From: Acidihalobacter prosperus
Lineage (GTDB): Bacteria > Pseudomonadota > Gammaproteobacteria > DSM-5130 > Acidihalobacteraceae
Reading direction: 5' to 3'
NCBI RefSeq assembly: GCF_000754095.2
Contig: NZ_JQSG02000006.1
Span: forward strand, 666,939-730,938
DNA length: 64,000 nt
Numbering within the stretch: position 1 is the first letter of the stretch; each line of letters starts with the position of its first letter. This document shows, one piece after another, positions 18,639 to 52,103 of this stretch. Below the pieces are notes generated by a model. It ran no database searches. It had not been told where the DNA came from and saw nothing but the letters and a program-made list of their open reading frames with translations. Both the position numbers and the translations under genes were made by a program.

Positions 18639-19157
18639 CTACAGGCGCAGCACGAAGGTGTCGTAGGTGGCGCCGCTTTCGCCGGCGAGTCGGTTGAGGT
18701 AATCCAGCGAGGCGGCAGGCGCCTGGTTGGCGCTGCTGCGCTCCTCTATGGCGCGCATCTCGCGATACAGTTCGCTGACCGTGGCGATGGCCTGCGTGGT
18801 GGGTTTGCGCCTGACCGAGTAGTAGCCGGTGATGTTGCCGGCCTGGTCGCGGTCGGCCGTGACGTTGGCGAGCACCCAGTAGTAATCGCCGTTATTGCAC
18901 AGGTTCTTGACGTAGGCGAAGCATTCCTCGCCGCTGCGAATGGTGTCCCAGAGCAGCTTGAATACGCCGCGCGGCATATCGGGGTGGCGGATGAGGCTGT
19001 GTGGCTGGCCAAGCAGCTCGGGTTCGAGATAGCCCGAGATCGACATGAACACGCGATTGGCGTAGACGATTCGGCCTCGCGGATCGGTCTTCGAGACGAT
19101 GAACGAGTCGTCGGGCAGCATGATTTCGCGCTGAGTGGGTGTCGGGCGTGCCGCCAT
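18639..19157 (-). CDS. Stand-alone Aer/CetB-type PAS protein (downstream copy)
   Basis: A 172-residue soluble protein made of one PAS domain (residues about 15-120) and a short helical tail. The PAS core ([65 protein letters not shown]) is the FAD-binding type found in Aer and CetB energy-taxis sensors. No membrane or signalling domain is present, so it must pass its signal to a partner, most likely the chemoreceptor encoded just upstream. It is very similar to the PAS protein at 20664-21182 and exactly the same length. The ATG at 19157 gives the matching N-terminus; the frame upstream is not conserved between copies. Confidence 0.87.
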   Translation of the reverse strand: MAARPTPTQREIMLPDDSFIVSKTDPRGRIVYANRVFMSISGYLEPELLGQPHSLIRHPDMPRGVFKLLWDTIRSGEECFAYVKNLCNNGDYYWVLANVTADRDQAGNITGYYSVRRKPTTQAIATVSELYREMRAIEERSSANQAPAASLDYLNRLAGESGATYDTFVLRL

Positions 19158-19219
19158 CCTGGACTTTCTCCGGTTCGGGCGGGCCGAAGACGGCACCAAG
19201 GCCGTCTCGGCCGCTGCGT

Positions 19220-20689
19220 TCAGGCCGCCGAGCGCTGCTGCTCGCCGCGCCGTTCCTCGACCATGGCTTCAAGCGTTTCGCCGAGGCGTTCGCTGGCCTG
19301 TTCGGTGGCCCGGAAGCTCTTGAGGATGTCGTTCTGCAGTTGTGGATCGTGCTCCCAGTCCTGCCCCAGAAGCTCGAGTACGTGGGCGAGATTGCTGTGG
19401 ATGAAGGCGTGTGGCTGCTCCAGGGCGCGGTACTGGCTGAGCGAGGCGAAGCGTTCGTCGCCTTCGTCGTACCAGCGGCCGAAGCGACAGTCGTGCTGAT
19501 CCGAGCGGATGGCTTCGGCCTCGCGCGATTCTGTGCCGTTGTAGATCACGAGATAGCCGTTCTGCTTGTAGATCATGTGATCCACGCGGGCCAGCGAGGT
19601 GAAGCACAGGTCGCTGGCATACTGCATCGAGTGCGTGGTGGCCTGGGCGGTTTCGGTGAACTGGGTGAACAGGGTTTCGATGCCGGAGACCTGTGAGCCG
19701 AGCTGCTGGGACATGGTCAGCATGTCCTTCGAATTGGCCTGCATCGTTGCCGATTCTCGGCGGAAGGTATCGACCACGCTGCGGGTTTCCTCGGTGGCGC
19801 GCTTGGTGTTGGCGGCGAGCGCGCGCACCTCGTCGGCGACCACGGCGAAGCCTCGGCCGTGCTCGCCGGCGCGCGCGGCCTCGATGCTGGCGTTGAGCGC
19901 CAGCAGGTTGGTATTGTCGGCGATCTGATTGATGAGTTGCATGACCTTGGCGATTTCGTCGCTCATGCGGGTCATGGCCTTCATGGATTCGCGCGACTGT
20001 TCGAGCATCTGCTCGGTGCGTTTGAGCGAGCCGACCATATCGCGCACGTTGCTTACGCTGTCCGCCGCCTGCCTGGCGTTGGTGCTGGCGATGGCGCTGA
20101 TGCGGTCGACCTCGTCGTTGATGCGGCCGAGGTCGTTCTGGCTCTGCTGCAGGTTGCCCATGGTGTTCTCGGCGTTGAGCTGCTGGAGCTGGGAAAGCAG
20201 GGCGTTGCGCTGCACATAGCGCGCGTTTTCCTCGATCGCTCCCATGGACTGGTTGATGTTGTCCAGGGTGGTGGCGGCGGTGCCGGACAGGCCGACGGCC
20301 AGCGCGCGGCGGTAGTACTTGCCCTGGCTGACCAGAGTGAAGGTGGTGTTCACCTCGCGGAAGAAGGTTTCGACCTGATCGAGGAATTCGTTGAGCTCCC
20401 AGGCGATCTGCCCGACCTCGCCCATCCAGCGGACGTTGGTGATGCGGTTGCTCAGATTGCCCGCATGCGCCTCGCGGATCACATGGCGGATGCGATGCAT
20501 GGCTTCGACCACGGGCAGCACGGCGCGCCACAGGTAGGCGCCGAATGCGATGCTGATGACGAGCATGGCCAGCAGCCAGGCATTCAAGCCGCCGTGCGTG
20601 ACGGCGTCGACGACCGTGGTGGCCGCCATGTAGGCGACGAAGCCGACGATGATGAGCCGGAACTTAGAGACTAAGAATAAACGTTTCAT
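19220..20689 (-). CDS. CetA-like chemoreceptor with HAMP, signalling hairpin and C-terminal CZB domain
   Basis: A 489-residue chemoreceptor. Two membrane segments (about 10-30 and 36-60) are separated by only a few periplasmic residues, so it has no external ligand domain, as in Aer and CetA. A HAMP region ([18 protein letters not shown]) leads to the cytoplasmic coiled coil with the hairpin tip [20 protein letters not shown]. The C-terminus has a CZB zinc-binding domain: the His of [12 protein letters not shown], the Cys of DCRFGRWY and the His pair in [11 protein letters not shown]. The gene overlaps the upstream PAS gene by 26 bases. It would convert PAS signals from partner proteins into CheA control. 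Confidence 0.88.
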
Positions 20690-21182
20690 AGGTCATCCCC
20701 CGATCCGCGATCAGTCGATTGAGGTGTTCTAGCGAGGCCGCGGGCGCCTGATTGGCTGTGCTGCCCGCTTCGATGGCGCACATGTCGCGGTACAGCCCGG
20801 CAACGAATTTCACCGCTTCCGCCGAAGGCTTGCGCCGCACCGAGTAATAGCCCGTGATGCCTCCGTTGGCGTCACGGTCGGCCGTGACGTTGGCGAGTAC
20901 CCAGTAGTAGTCGCCGCTCTTGCACAGGTTCTTGACGTAGGCGAAGCATTCGTCGCCGGTGCGGATGGTGTCCCAGAGCAGCTTGAACACGCCGCGCGGC
21001 ATGTCCGGGTGACGAACGATGCTTTGCGGCTCGCCGAGCAGCTCGGGTTCCAGATAGCCCGAGATCGACATGAACACCCGGTTGGCGTAGGTGATCCGCC
21101 CCCGCGGATCGGTCTTCGAGACGATGAACGAATCGGCGGGGAGGATGACTTCCCGCTGAGTCGGAATGGGACGCGAAGGCAT
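20664..21182 (-). CDS. Stand-alone Aer/CetB-type PAS protein (upstream copy)
   Basis: A 172-residue PAS protein, the near twin of that at 18639-19157, with the same Aer/CetB-type core ([51 protein letters not shown]). The Asn and Trp positions typical of FAD-binding PAS domains are kept. The ATG at 21182 is preferred: GGTGGAG lies nine bases upstream and the product is then the same length as its paralogue. A GTG at 21197 would add five residues. It is the first gene after the sigma28-type promoter at 21284-21310. Its end overlaps the chemoreceptor start by 26 bases, so the two are translationally coupled. Confidence 0.88.
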
Positions 21183-21283
21183 GGCGTCGTGCTCCACCGA
21201 TGATATTTGGGGTCGTGGTTTATTTATCTTTTAGCAGCTTGTTACCTTTATGCGGGTAAAATAGCGCTGCTATTTGTCTGGTT

Positions 21284-21310
21284 TTATCGGCCGATAACCG
21301 CAATCCATTA
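21284..21310 (-). promoter_or_regulatory. Sigma28 (FliA) type promoter of the PAS-chemoreceptor operon
   Basis: On the minus strand TAATGGAT (complement of 21303-21310), an 11-base spacer and GCCGATAA (complement of 21284-21291) match the sigma28 consensus TAAAGTTT-N11-GCCGATAA (5/8 and 8/8). The site is about 100 bases before the first PAS gene in an AT-rich leader. A class III flagellar promoter is expected for a taxis receptor. Confidence 0.72.
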
Positions 21311-21374: not shown

Positions 21375-22691
21375 TTACTTGCCCGCGGCAGTGCCCGGGG
21401 GGGCGCCGTCCTCCCTTGCGCATTCAGCCTGCCGCAGTCGCTCGGCCTGTTCGAGGTGGTGTTCGAGCGCACGGGCCTGCAGGCCGGGAAGTTCGTCTGC
21501 GTGAAGCCCCAGTGCCTGGCATTGCCCTGCGATGGCCGCGTGATCGGCGTGCTCAAGTGCCTGGGTGAGGGCCAGCATCCGTCCGAGCGGTCCGGTTTGC
21601 ATGATCAGCGCGTCGCTCATGTCCTTAGGCAGCGCCAAACCTTCGACGAGCTGTTGCATCGGGCGTCCGAGCAGCGTGTCGAGCAGTGACAGGCAGCCGA
21701 TGGCGCTGGCCTCGTCGATACGTTTTCGGGTTTGAGGATTCGCGACCGCCAGCATGCTCATCAGCTCGGCGCGCTGGCCGGCCAGTTCCAGGAGGGATTC
21801 GGCCGCGGCATGCGTGTCGCGGGCGCCTGCGTAGAGTTCCAGCGTGAGCCAGCGCTGCAGGTTGCGCCTGCCCAGGCGCATGATGGCATCGCGCAGTTTG
21901 CGCGGGGTGGTGGCATTGCCGAAGCCAATCGAACTGGCGTAGCGCAGTAGGCGGTAAAGCAGGCCGGCATCGCGGCTCAGGGTGCGTTCGACCGCTTGGC
22001 TGTCGTCGTCCTCCTGCACGCGGCGCAAGGCGTCGAGCAGCGTCGCGGTAGCGGCCGGCAGCTTGGTGTTTTCGAAAATTTCGGGGCGGGCGAAGAAATA
22101 GCCCTGGAAGGCGTCGCAGCCCAGACCGCGGCAATACTCGAATTCTTCCCGGCTCTCGACCTTTTCGGCAATGATGCGTAGTCCGCGGGATTTGGCTTGC
22201 CGCACGTGGGCCAGCAGCGCTCCGGCGTTCAGTGCGCGGACGTCGAGCTTGACGATATCGACGGTGTCGAGAAAGGGTTCCCAGACGGGGCGGTAGACGA
22301 AATCGTCCAGCGCGAGCCGGTAGCCGCGCGCCTTCCATTCGAGACAGCGCGCCAGCAGTTCGGCATTTGGCGTGGCGGTTTCCAGAATCTCGAGCACCAC
22401 CTGTTCGGGCGTCAGCAGCTCGGGCGTGTCTTCGAGCAGATTGGCGTCGTCGAAGTTGATGTAGACGGGGCGTCCGGCGGACAGCACCGACAGGCCGATG
22501 ATCCCCAATGCGTGCAACATGACCGAAGCCGTCGCGTCGCGTTCGGGCTTGTCAGGGGCGCAGTTCCCCGGACCGCTGCGGTAGAGCAGTTCGTAGGCGA
22601 CGATCTGCTCGCGGGCATCGAGTATCGGCTGGCGCGCGAGAAATGCCGGAGTCGCGGGCGTGTGCTGCGTGCTGCGGTTGCCTGCCTGCAT
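21375..22691 (-). CDS. EAL-HDOD (YuxH-family) signalling protein with degenerate EAL
   Basis: A 438-residue cytosolic protein. The N-terminal half (FLARQPILDAREQIVAYELL to GYFFARPEIF) is an EAL fold, but the catalytic EAL is ELL and other metal ligands differ (LALDDFVYRP retains a DD pair). C-di-GMP hydrolysis is therefore doubtful. The C-terminal half is an HDOD domain (DAGLLYRLLRYASSIGF, TTPRKLRDAIMRLGRRNLQRW). Such proteins (YuxH/CdgJ type) regulate motility or act as c-di-GMP-related adaptors. It lies next to the taxis operon and is transcribed in the same direction, but it starts downstream of that operon's promoter on the other side. No clear ribosome-binding site was found. Confidence 0.86.
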   Translation of the reverse strand: MQAGNRSTQHTPATPAFLARQPILDAREQIVAYELLYRSGPGNCAPDKPERDATASVMLHALGIIGLSVLSAGRPVYINFDDANLLEDTPELLTPEQVVLEILETATPNAELLARCLEWKARGYRLALDDFVYRPVWEPFLDTVDIVKLDVRALNAGALLAHVRQAKSRGLRIIAEKVESREEFEYCRGLGCDAFQGYFFARPEIFENTKLPAATATLLDALRRVQEDDDSQAVERTLSRDAGLLYRLLRYASSIGFGNATTPRKLRDAIMRLGRRNLQRWLTLELYAGARDTHAAAESLLELAGQRAELMSMLAVANPQTRKRIDEASAIGCLSLLDTLLGRPMQQLVEGLALPKDMSDALIMQTGPLGRMLALTQALEHADHAAIAGQCQALGLHADELPGLQARALEHHLEQAERLRQAECAREDGAPPGTAAGK

Positions 22692-50295: not shown

Positions 50296-51978
50296 TCAGA
50301 TCTTGAACTGGTTGACCAGCGACTGCAGCTCGGCCGATAGCTTGGCGAGTTCCTCGCTGGCGCTCGCGGTCTGTTGCGCGCCGGCGGCCGTCTGGTCGGT
50401 CGAGTGGCTGATGTTGCTGATGTTGCGGTTGATTTCCTCGGCGACGGTGGACTGTTCCTCTGCGGCGCTTGCGATCAGCGCATTCATGTCGTTGATGCGC
50501 GCCACCGAGGTGCCGATCTCGTCGAGCGAGGTGCCCGCCTCCTGGGCCTGCGTCACGCTTGCCTGGGCGCGTTCGCGCCCGGAGGCCATGGCTTCCACCG
50601 CACCCTTCGAGCCTGCCTGCAGGCGCTCGATCATGCCGCGGATTTCCTCGGTTGAGTCCTGCGTGCGTTTGGCCAGGGTGCGCACCTCGTCCGCCACCAC
50701 GGCAAAGCCTCGGCCCTGCTCGCCCGCGCGCGCCGCCTCGATCGCCGCGTTCAGCGCCAGCAGATTGGTCTGTTCCGAAATCCCGCTGATCACTTCCAGC
50801 ACGCGCCCGATCTGCGCGCTGTCGCCCTCGAGCGCATGGATGACCTCGGCGGTGCGTTCGACCTCGTCGGCGAGCTGACTGATCGCCTGGATGGTGCTGC
50901 CGACCACCTTCTGCCCTTTCGTGGTGGCGCCGCTGGCATCCTGCGCGGCCCGTGCCGCGTCGTTGGCGTTTTTCGCGACTTCCTGCACGGTGGAGGACAT
51001 TTCGTTCATCGCCGCGGCCACCTGTTCGGTTTCGCTTTGCTGGCTGCCGACGTGGCGATTGGTTTCCTCGCTGGTGGCGGAGAGCTCCTCGGCCGCCGCG
51101 GCAAGCTGCGCGGTGGACCCAGCCACCTGGCTGACGACCTTCTGGATACGCTCCACGAACTGGTTGAATGCATCGGCGAGCTGGTCCAGTTCGTCCTGTC
51201 CGCGGGTACTCATGCGGCGGGTCAGGTCGCCCTCTCCCTGGGCGATGTCGCGCATGGTGCTGACGGCGGTGCACAGGCGCTTGCGCATGCTCAACACGGC
51301 CGCGCCGATGAGGCTCGCGCCCACGAGCAGGGCCAGCATGAGCAGGCTCAGACTGAGTATCTTGGAGACCTGCAGATCGTGGAGCACCTGTTCCTTGTCT
51401 TGGGTTGCCCGCGCCTGCACCTGCTTGATCAACGCGGTTAACTGGCGGTCGATTTCCTCGGATTCCGGATAGGCGACGGTCACCAGCTCGCTTTGGGCGG
51501 CGGCGAACTGCAGCGATTTCAGACGTTCGATGGTCTGCTCGTAGTCGGCTTTGCTCTGCGCCCAGAGCACGCCGATCTGGTCGAGCTTTTCCTTGAATTC
51601 CGGGTAGTCGGCCACGATGGCCTCGGCCTGCCGGTAGGACTTGTCGGCGTCGTCCACGTAGCGACGCGCGGCCGCGACGTATTTGCCGTCGATACTGTCC
51701 TTCATCAGTTTTTCGACCTGCTTGGGGTCCATGCCGCCGGTGCGCGAAAGATTCATGTTGAGTACGTTGTCGCGTATCGCGACGCCGGTGCGCAGGGTGG
51801 CGCTGTTCATGTGTTCCAGCGTCTGCAGCAGCGTGGCTTCCTGATCGCTGCGCAGGGTGTCGCGCTTGATGATGCTGCCGAACCAGACGGGCGTGAGCAC
51901 GGCGGTGATGGCGAAGAGGGCGGCGACGCCGACGCTGGCCATGATGCGCGCGGAGATGGTGCGGACCATTAGGGTCAT
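50296..51978 (-). CDS. Methyl-accepting chemotaxis protein with periplasmic sensor domain
   Basis: A 560-residue chemoreceptor. A first membrane segment ([17 protein letters not shown]) precedes a periplasmic, mostly helical four-helix-bundle-like domain (about 40-200). The second membrane segment ([19 protein letters not shown]) is followed by HAMP ([20 protein letters not shown]) and the long coiled coil. The hairpin tip is [20 protein letters not shown]. It carries no obvious C-terminal CheR-binding pentapeptide (ends SLVNQFKI). It should send signals to CheA. AAGGA precedes the ATG and a sigma28-type promoter lies about 100 bases upstream. The ligand is unknown. Confidence 0.92.
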
Positions 51979-52076: not shown

Positions 52077-52103
52077 TTATCGGCTTGCCATAAAAATCCT
52101 TTA
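52077..52103 (-). promoter_or_regulatory. Sigma28 (FliA) type promoter of the chemoreceptor at 50296-51978
   Basis: On the minus strand TAAAGGAT (complement of 52096-52103), an 11-base spacer and GCCGATAA (complement of 52077-52084) match the sigma28 consensus TAAAGTTT-N11-GCCGATAA at 6/8 and 8/8. This is the best match in the window. The second such promoter is at 21284-21310. Confidence 0.82.

Follow-up and report, generated by a model that had tools for sequence, protein, structure and literature searches.

The 64,000-nucleotide stretch of the Acidihalobacter prosperus contig NZ_JQSG02000006.1 analysed here (the window) contains a three-gene operon that probably encodes a two-part receptor for redox (energy) taxis, of the CetA/CetB type. 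The genes are transcribed in the order PAS-U, chemoreceptor, PAS-D. The receptor has no PAS domain of its own; a lone Aer-type PAS gene adjoins it, and PAS-D starts 62 bases past the receptor stop codon. The gene anatomy, the sequence family, the zinc-ligand positions and the purifying selection described below are directly established. A first-pass annotation of this DNA had proposed a split receptor of the CetA/CetB type. The PAS–receptor–PAS order, the lone Aer-type PAS proteins, the CetA-type conserved residues and the membrane hairpin all agree with that proposal, and on these features membership of the CetA/CetB family is well supported.

Hydropathy and the structure model agree in predicting a membrane hairpin at the N-terminus of the receptor (model helices 3-32 and 37-75, joined by a loop of about four residues), as expected from the earlier description of two membrane helices with hardly any periplasmic part. 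The signalling domain of methyl-accepting chemotaxis proteins (MCPs) is located at residues 223-354 and scores above the Pfam cut-off. Family conservation and a profile match point to a HAMP region. Seven residues that hardly vary across 95 aligned CetA-type receptors (G77, R82, N100, D104, R127, G133 and G136) are all present in the window receptor; this signature was derived in the present analysis, independently of the nine-residue definition of 2009. A profile of 36 receptors (the window's included) matched Aer2 3vol (query 50-151, expectation value (E) 3e-6), which we take to carry paired HAMPs, and also the histidine kinase fusion 9trk (query 59-158, E 4e-13). Among the matches listed by Foldseek for the receptor model, MCPs come top; below them stand helical proteins of no relation and two poly-HAMP entries of Aer2 (E 0.15 and 0.33). 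VIA-align listed MCP structures plus many unrelated helical proteins and is therefore no test of the CZB or HAMP assignments. We note that in one other genome (G038, locus L015) the receptor is split into a HAMP open reading frame (ORF) and an MCP–CZB ORF, about 320 bases apart.

PAS-U and PAS-D are identical at 131 of 172 residues (76%) and are thus diverged paralogues. The annotated pair of flanking 172-residue Aer-type PAS proteins is correct in length and position; the statement that the copies are near-identical is rejected. The closest solved structure to PAS-U by sequence is the PAS domain of E. coli Aer, 8DIK (E 3e-28, with one single-residue gap in the alignment); the aerotaxis receptor chain 31cj is the other solved relative. 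Modelling and structure searching of the PAS proteins covered PAS-U, for which the AlphaFold2 model (mean predicted local distance difference test score 96.5) has 8dik_A as its top match in the PDB, with a template modelling score of 0.95 (target length) and a root-mean-square deviation of 1.1 Å. E. coli Aer differs from the window system in being one protein rather than split. To our knowledge, it carries no CZB domain.

The flavin contacts in Aer include His53, which stacks on the flavin (PMC9668731). Arg57, Asn85, Trp70 and the arginine matching Aer Arg115 are kept in both window copies, as are His58 and Asp60. All of the checked contact positions for flavin adenine dinucleotide (FAD) are kept in PAS-D, and PAS-U differs at position 53, where it has glutamine. 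In an alignment of 73 of the 80 best named-species PAS loci with both window copies (A3), His53 occurs in 74 of 75 rows, PAS-U being the sole exception, although one of the two scan patterns permitted only His or Gln at this place. In the set from the same class of bacteria, found via the receptor, His53 occurs in 24 of 29 PAS proteins, Gln in two (PAS-U and that of the sister species G001) and Leu or Ile in three divergent ones. The PAS protein of a second relative, G002, in whose genome the receptor was undetected, also has Gln53; this orphan (L166/L182) additionally has Glu in place of Gly28. Two further pairs (L035 and L039, in G105 and G320) combine a PAS protein without His53 and Arg57 with a receptor CZB that has lost zinc ligands, both sensors having decayed together.

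Table 1. Coordinates of the operon and its features in the window.
Feature	Position	Strand	Description
PAS-U gene	20664..21182	minus	soluble CetB-like PAS protein, 172 aa, Gln at Aer position 53
Receptor gene (CetA-like)	19220..20689	minus	489 aa: 2 membrane helices, putative HAMP region ~59-158, MCP signalling, C-terminal CZB
PAS-D gene	18639..19157	minus	second soluble CetB-like PAS protein, 172 aa, His53
PAS-U/receptor gene overlap	20664..20689	minus	26 bases, out of frame
CZB domain	19379..19579	minus	receptor residues 371-437; Pfam PF13682
Sigma-28 (FliA)-type promoter-like site	21284..21310	minus	TAAT-N15-GCCGATAA; end 101 bases ahead of PAS-U start codon

The C-terminal CZB domain, as annotated, is present: the match to the Pfam profile (E 6e-13, 49.4 bits) lies above the cut-off of 29.4, and the four zinc-ligand positions are complete (His371, Cys401, His427 and His431, with the motif CRFGRWY), from which zinc binding is predicted. 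The receptor thus has both the 3His/1Cys ligand set and the CX(L/F)GXW(Y/L) motif of CZB proteins. In these features and in the C-terminal location of the domain it resembles the CZB chemoreceptors TlpD and McpA and the membrane-bound cluster II of a 2021 survey (PMC8262984); receptors of the TlpD type are soluble, whereas that of the window is membrane-anchored. The available portion of the survey does not mention the pairing of a CZB receptor with a CetB-like PAS protein. A second CZB above the Pfam cut-off occurs elsewhere in the window genome, within a 913-residue open frame (G000:C3:377080-377217).

Pfam places a CZB in 56 of 95 aligned receptors, a proportion that is slightly high because eight of the ten ORFs dropped from the 105 found had no CZB match (the ten were L030, L034, L040, L041, L042, L050, both L069 ORFs, the second L088 ORF and L101; L030 and the second L088 ORF had one). 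A complete zinc-ligand set is found in 55 of 106 receptors, this set being the 95 minus L028, L036, L096 and L117, plus 15 from a search of the Campylobacter concisus family, from which near-duplicates and cut ORFs were kept out. CZB-bearing versions occur in Gammaproteobacteria, betaproteobacteria, Campylobacterota and one member of the Holophagaceae; one Ignavibacteriales record has the CZB placed differently, and no CZB was seen in any sampled alphaproteobacterial receptor (class taken from the record title). The putative zinc-domain version of the two-part receptor is therefore widespread.

In C. concisus and several relatives of its family the receptor ends in a tail that derives from a CZB but is without two to four of the zinc ligands, and these receptors fall within the CZB-bearing group; the window receptor represents the intact form. 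The decayed tails still match a profile of the intact CZB: with a search size of 1000, E is 1e-5 for L119 (C. concisus), 3e-11 for L163, 1e-10 for L154, 1.5e-9 for L148, 4e-7 for L155, 6e-5 for L180, 1.4e-4 for L151, 1.7e-4 for L175 and 3e-4 for L140. All four ligand columns differ in L119, L140, L148, L154 and L155, three differ in L163, and the last two histidines differ in L151, L175 and L180. L151 also resembles the published description of the CetA hairpin. A receptor tree (94 rows, CZB columns excluded; ten CZB-free receptors and two with CZB omitted from the 106) gave a group of 73 (support 97) comprising 54 of 55 intact-CZB, all 15 degenerate-CZB and four CZB-free receptors. The other side holds 20 CZB-free rows and one CZB-bearing row. 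The CZB state was set by hand in three receptors (L176 degenerate; L124 and L062 intact). This tree and the PAS tree below were made by a quick method with support from the Shimodaira–Hasegawa-like approximate likelihood ratio test only, and as unrooted trees they cannot prove loss over gain.

Because the ligands have decayed in a domain that still matches, the simpler reading is that the CZB was lost, rather than gained, in the relatives on the Campylobacter branch. A clean account of loss has to contend with L176, whose tail falls just short of a match (0.0014), with L162, L158, L145 and Helicobacter L093, which gave no match to the intact CZB profile, and with L136 and L138, which belong to the same family as C. 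concisus and retain an intact CZB. The first-pass annotation had taken C. jejuni CetA to lack a CZB. The domain does not look like an addition to a CZB-free CetA, given the CZB-derived tail, lacking the full ligand set, in C. concisus and its relatives. The idea that the window receptor made an unusual acquisition is likewise rejected: the CZB is common among CetA-type receptors, and its intact and degenerate forms group together in the tree.

The arrangement had also been considered exceptional for a gammaproteobacterium, which is not supported. Of 369 genomes sampled from the class, 28, counting that of the window, matched the CetA-type N-terminus (receptor residues 1-162 as query, E 1e-6), and a PAS ORF adjoins the receptor in 24 of these. 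In the remaining four, G274 and G288 match weakly, through longer receptors that have no PAS gene beside them, the receptor of G052 lies at a contig edge, and the PAS gene of G347 is interrupted; the last (L024) is a PAS frame beside a CZB receptor broken by a single TAG. A CZB-like stretch is present in 23 of the 28, two of which lack ligands. An Aer-type PAS match, fused and free forms not being told apart, was obtained in 122 of the 369 genomes at E 1e-18. Split pairs are thus a minority feature of the class. Such pairs are also present in betaproteobacteria and Campylobacterota. In a scan of named-species genomes with 16 CetB-like queries, from which the best 80 loci were kept, 75 have a CetA-type HAMP ORF immediately following the PAS gene (L101 is uncounted, its first-start ORF overlapping the PAS gene beyond the rule) and 37 have a CZB by a profile built here. 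None of the best 80 has a second small PAS ORF. Receptors with a PAS gene on each side were seen in the window, G190 (L018/L177) and a single C. concisus-family genome (L175). In L176, L180 and L181 of that family, one CetA-type receptor gains two sensors in a different way, from two tandem PAS genes upstream of it. A scan of genome contigs with the receptor alone as query confirmed no relative, nor did a scan of viral contigs with PAS-U.

A PAS tree had been suggested as a check for local duplication. In the tree (90 rows; 14 mostly alphaproteobacterial rows and the divergent L028, L034, L035 and L039 omitted), PAS-U, PAS-D and the PAS genes of the two relatives form a genus-only group (99), within which PAS-D lies outside PAS-U and the relatives' genes (89). 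Five PAS genes from three C. concisus-family genomes form a separate group (99), in PAS–receptor–PAS or tandem order where the locus shows; the PAS gene of C. concisus itself falls elsewhere. G001 has PAS-U and the receptor, with no PAS-D counterpart found, and G002 has the PAS gene, its receptor going undetected. Most likely, then, the two copies arose by duplication in the window lineage before the split of the three species, and PAS-D was lost in G001 and G002. The branching order of PAS-D could be wrong, since its support is 89. With the C. concisus-family genes standing in for those of C. jejuni, descent of the third gene from CetC is not borne out, and orthology with CetC is rejected. 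The duplication being local to the genus, the resemblance of the third gene to CetC looks convergent. The ratio of nonsynonymous to synonymous substitution rates is 0.12-0.21 among the PAS genes of the genus and 0.05 for the receptor, hence all are under purifying selection.

Coupled synthesis had been proposed from the 26-base overlap of the first PAS gene with the receptor. The overlap is real and is a habit of the family. The exact 26-base form is found in 34 of 105 receptor ORFs when the first start codon is taken; with other starts allowed, an ATG lies at the exact place in 47 of 96 pairs and the same frame relation holds in 81 of 96. The overlapping ATG falls in a conserved Tyr-Asp/Glu of the PAS C-terminus, and YD, YE or YN is also present at the C-terminus of PAS proteins whose genes overlap no receptor. 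The overlap may therefore follow from conservation of the protein. Its conservation for coupled translation only is rejected on the same grounds, though coupling itself is possible.

The sigma-28 consensus is TAAW-N15-GCCGATAA. Exact matches number two in the window; one lies 5′ of PAS-U, and the other at 52077-52103 (-), 98 bases upstream of another MCP gene (50296-51978, -). Allowing up to one mismatch gives three matches, two of which overlap at the operon site, one on each strand; chance would give 0.11 on average, and none of 100 shuffles reached three. The best upstream sites in the relatives, 101 bases before the gene in the sister species and 115 bases before the G002 orphan, each match at 9 of 12 positions, the level of shuffled sequence. 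Ahead of the PAS gene, 8 of 72 named loci match the consensus at 10 or more of its 12 positions, and 62 of 72 score 7-9, near shuffled sequence. The site is accordingly claimed for the window alone and rejected as a family feature, most named loci being near chance level and the genus relatives no better than it. The window genome has two CheA genes above the cut-off, two flagellins, 14 MCP matches and one one-piece Aer-like receptor.

The CetA/CetB family was already known, since 55 CetA/CetB-like pairs have been reported in diverse species (PMC2628428). The window operon belongs to the variant that bears a CZB, and its second PAS gene is diverged and specific to the lineage; the rarity of the operon was overstated in the first-pass annotation. 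It resembles C. jejuni CetA/CetB/CetC (Tlp9/Aer2/Aer1) in the PAS–receptor–PAS order, the lone PAS proteins, the hairpin anchor and the HAMP plus signalling domain (PMC2628428, PMC3558505). The C. jejuni order is cetC-cetA-cetB, and CetB and CetC are 64% identical (PMC3558505). The systems appear to differ in three respects. Compared with CetA, the CZB ligand set is full in the window, C. concisus and its relatives having a decayed tail; compared with CetB and CetC, the PAS duplication appears separate in the tree with stand-ins; and the window operon is preceded by a sigma-28-type site, whereas C. jejuni cetAB is reported to be independent of sigma-28 and sigma-54 (PMC2628428, where E. coli aer expression is cited as sigma-28-dependent). 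In Magnetospirillum gryphiswaldense, CetB2 binds FAD and interacts with CetA2, and their overlapping genes act together (PMC12442639). The likeness to the window lies in the overlapping PAS and receptor genes and in an FAD–PAS protein signalling to a membrane receptor; the M. gryphiswaldense pairs differ in having one PAS gene each, and the sampled alphaproteobacterial receptors (of other species) are without CZB. In C. jejuni the CZB receptor, Tlp6, is distinct from CetA and its two PAS partners, and jointly they influence where CheO is located (PMC9665402), whereas in the window redox and zinc inputs are proposed to reside in one complex. Our literature search, which did not cover the 2009 family paper, found no paper joining CZB and CetA/CetB in one receptor, as far as the available texts go.

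In a working model of the operon as a bipartite redox receptor, the receptor is a dimer anchored in the membrane; the PAS proteins would dock at its HAMP region, and the dimer would pass the redox state to CheA/CheW. Since a dimer offers two docking places, U/U, U/D and D/D receptors are possible, and the His53/Gln53 difference may set the two PAS types apart in flavin potential or in signalling bias. A residue count back from the hairpin tip would put the CZB alongside the descending helix near residue 159, at a distance of a few heptads from the HAMP. There, where the signalling helix returns towards the HAMP, it could add a second, zinc- or oxidant-linked input on the same receptor. The sigma-28-type promoter would tie expression of the operon to the flagella. 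We infer FAD and zinc binding, docking, mixed dimers and promoter use alike. A bolder extension, which we offer tentatively, is that in a large branch of these receptors the form with a CZB is the older one and the Campylobacter CetA of the textbooks a version with a decayed zinc sensor, and that the Gln53 duplicate in the window lineage supplies a second flavin sensor whose potential differs; one receptor array might then integrate two redox set-points with one zinc or oxidant signal.

Several observations weigh against the redox-receptor model. Pfam HAMP was not detected in the window receptor, even at E 10, so the annotated HAMP-bearing, CetA-like receptor is retained on its CetA-type conserved residues and profile match. 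CZB structures are absent from both fold-match listings of the receptor model. His53, the flavin contact in Aer, is missing from PAS-U, and FAD sensing by this protein could thus be altered or lost. Finally, the genus can do without a second PAS input, given that G001 lacks PAS-D and G002 a detected receptor.

It is conceivable, if unlikely, that one PAS copy does the work, with PAS-D as the redox sensor, PAS-U stabilising the receptor as a structural or locked subunit, and the CZB as main input in species where PAS-D is missing. The prevalence of His53 (74 of 75 CetB-like proteins, subject to the scan pattern noted above, and 24 of 29 in the class set) makes PAS-U exceptional, Gln53 recurs in G002, and G001 has the Gln53 copy only. 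Yet PAS-U retains the other checked flavin-contact positions and is under purifying selection, and C. jejuni cetC could replace cetB (PMC3558505), so that such subunits can be interchangeable. We think it improbable that the operon encodes a zinc or oxidant taxis receptor for which the CZB does the actual sensing and the PAS proteins play an accessory part. CZB receptors do sense oxidants or zinc (PMC13370339, PMC8262984), and the four ligand positions are present here, as is the full set in 55 of 106 receptors; but the PAS gene stays beside the receptor where the CZB is decayed or absent, making PAS the more constant partner, with the bias that many loci were found via PAS. That the PAS proteins act elsewhere and the pairing is an operon habit only is very hard to credit: G002 does retain a PAS gene with its receptor undetected, but adjacency and overlap are conserved across phyla and interaction is reported for homologues (PMC12442639).

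Of the new points, two seem to us the most useful: the decay of the CZB within part of the Campylobacter branch, and the naturally occurring His53/Gln53 pair. The former may alter our reading of the model system, since it was in Campylobacter that the bipartite receptor was characterised, and related receptors there appear to have lost zinc ligands; many Gammaproteobacteria, betaproteobacteria and other Campylobacterota seem to keep both inputs on one receptor. The latter offers a direct test of the role of the flavin-stacking histidine in Aer. The operon is flanked downstream by a dihydrofolate reductase gene on the opposite strand and directly upstream by an EAL-HDOD gene on the same strand (21375-22691, -), both also found in G001; a link of the EAL-HDOD gene to cyclic di-GMP is possible.

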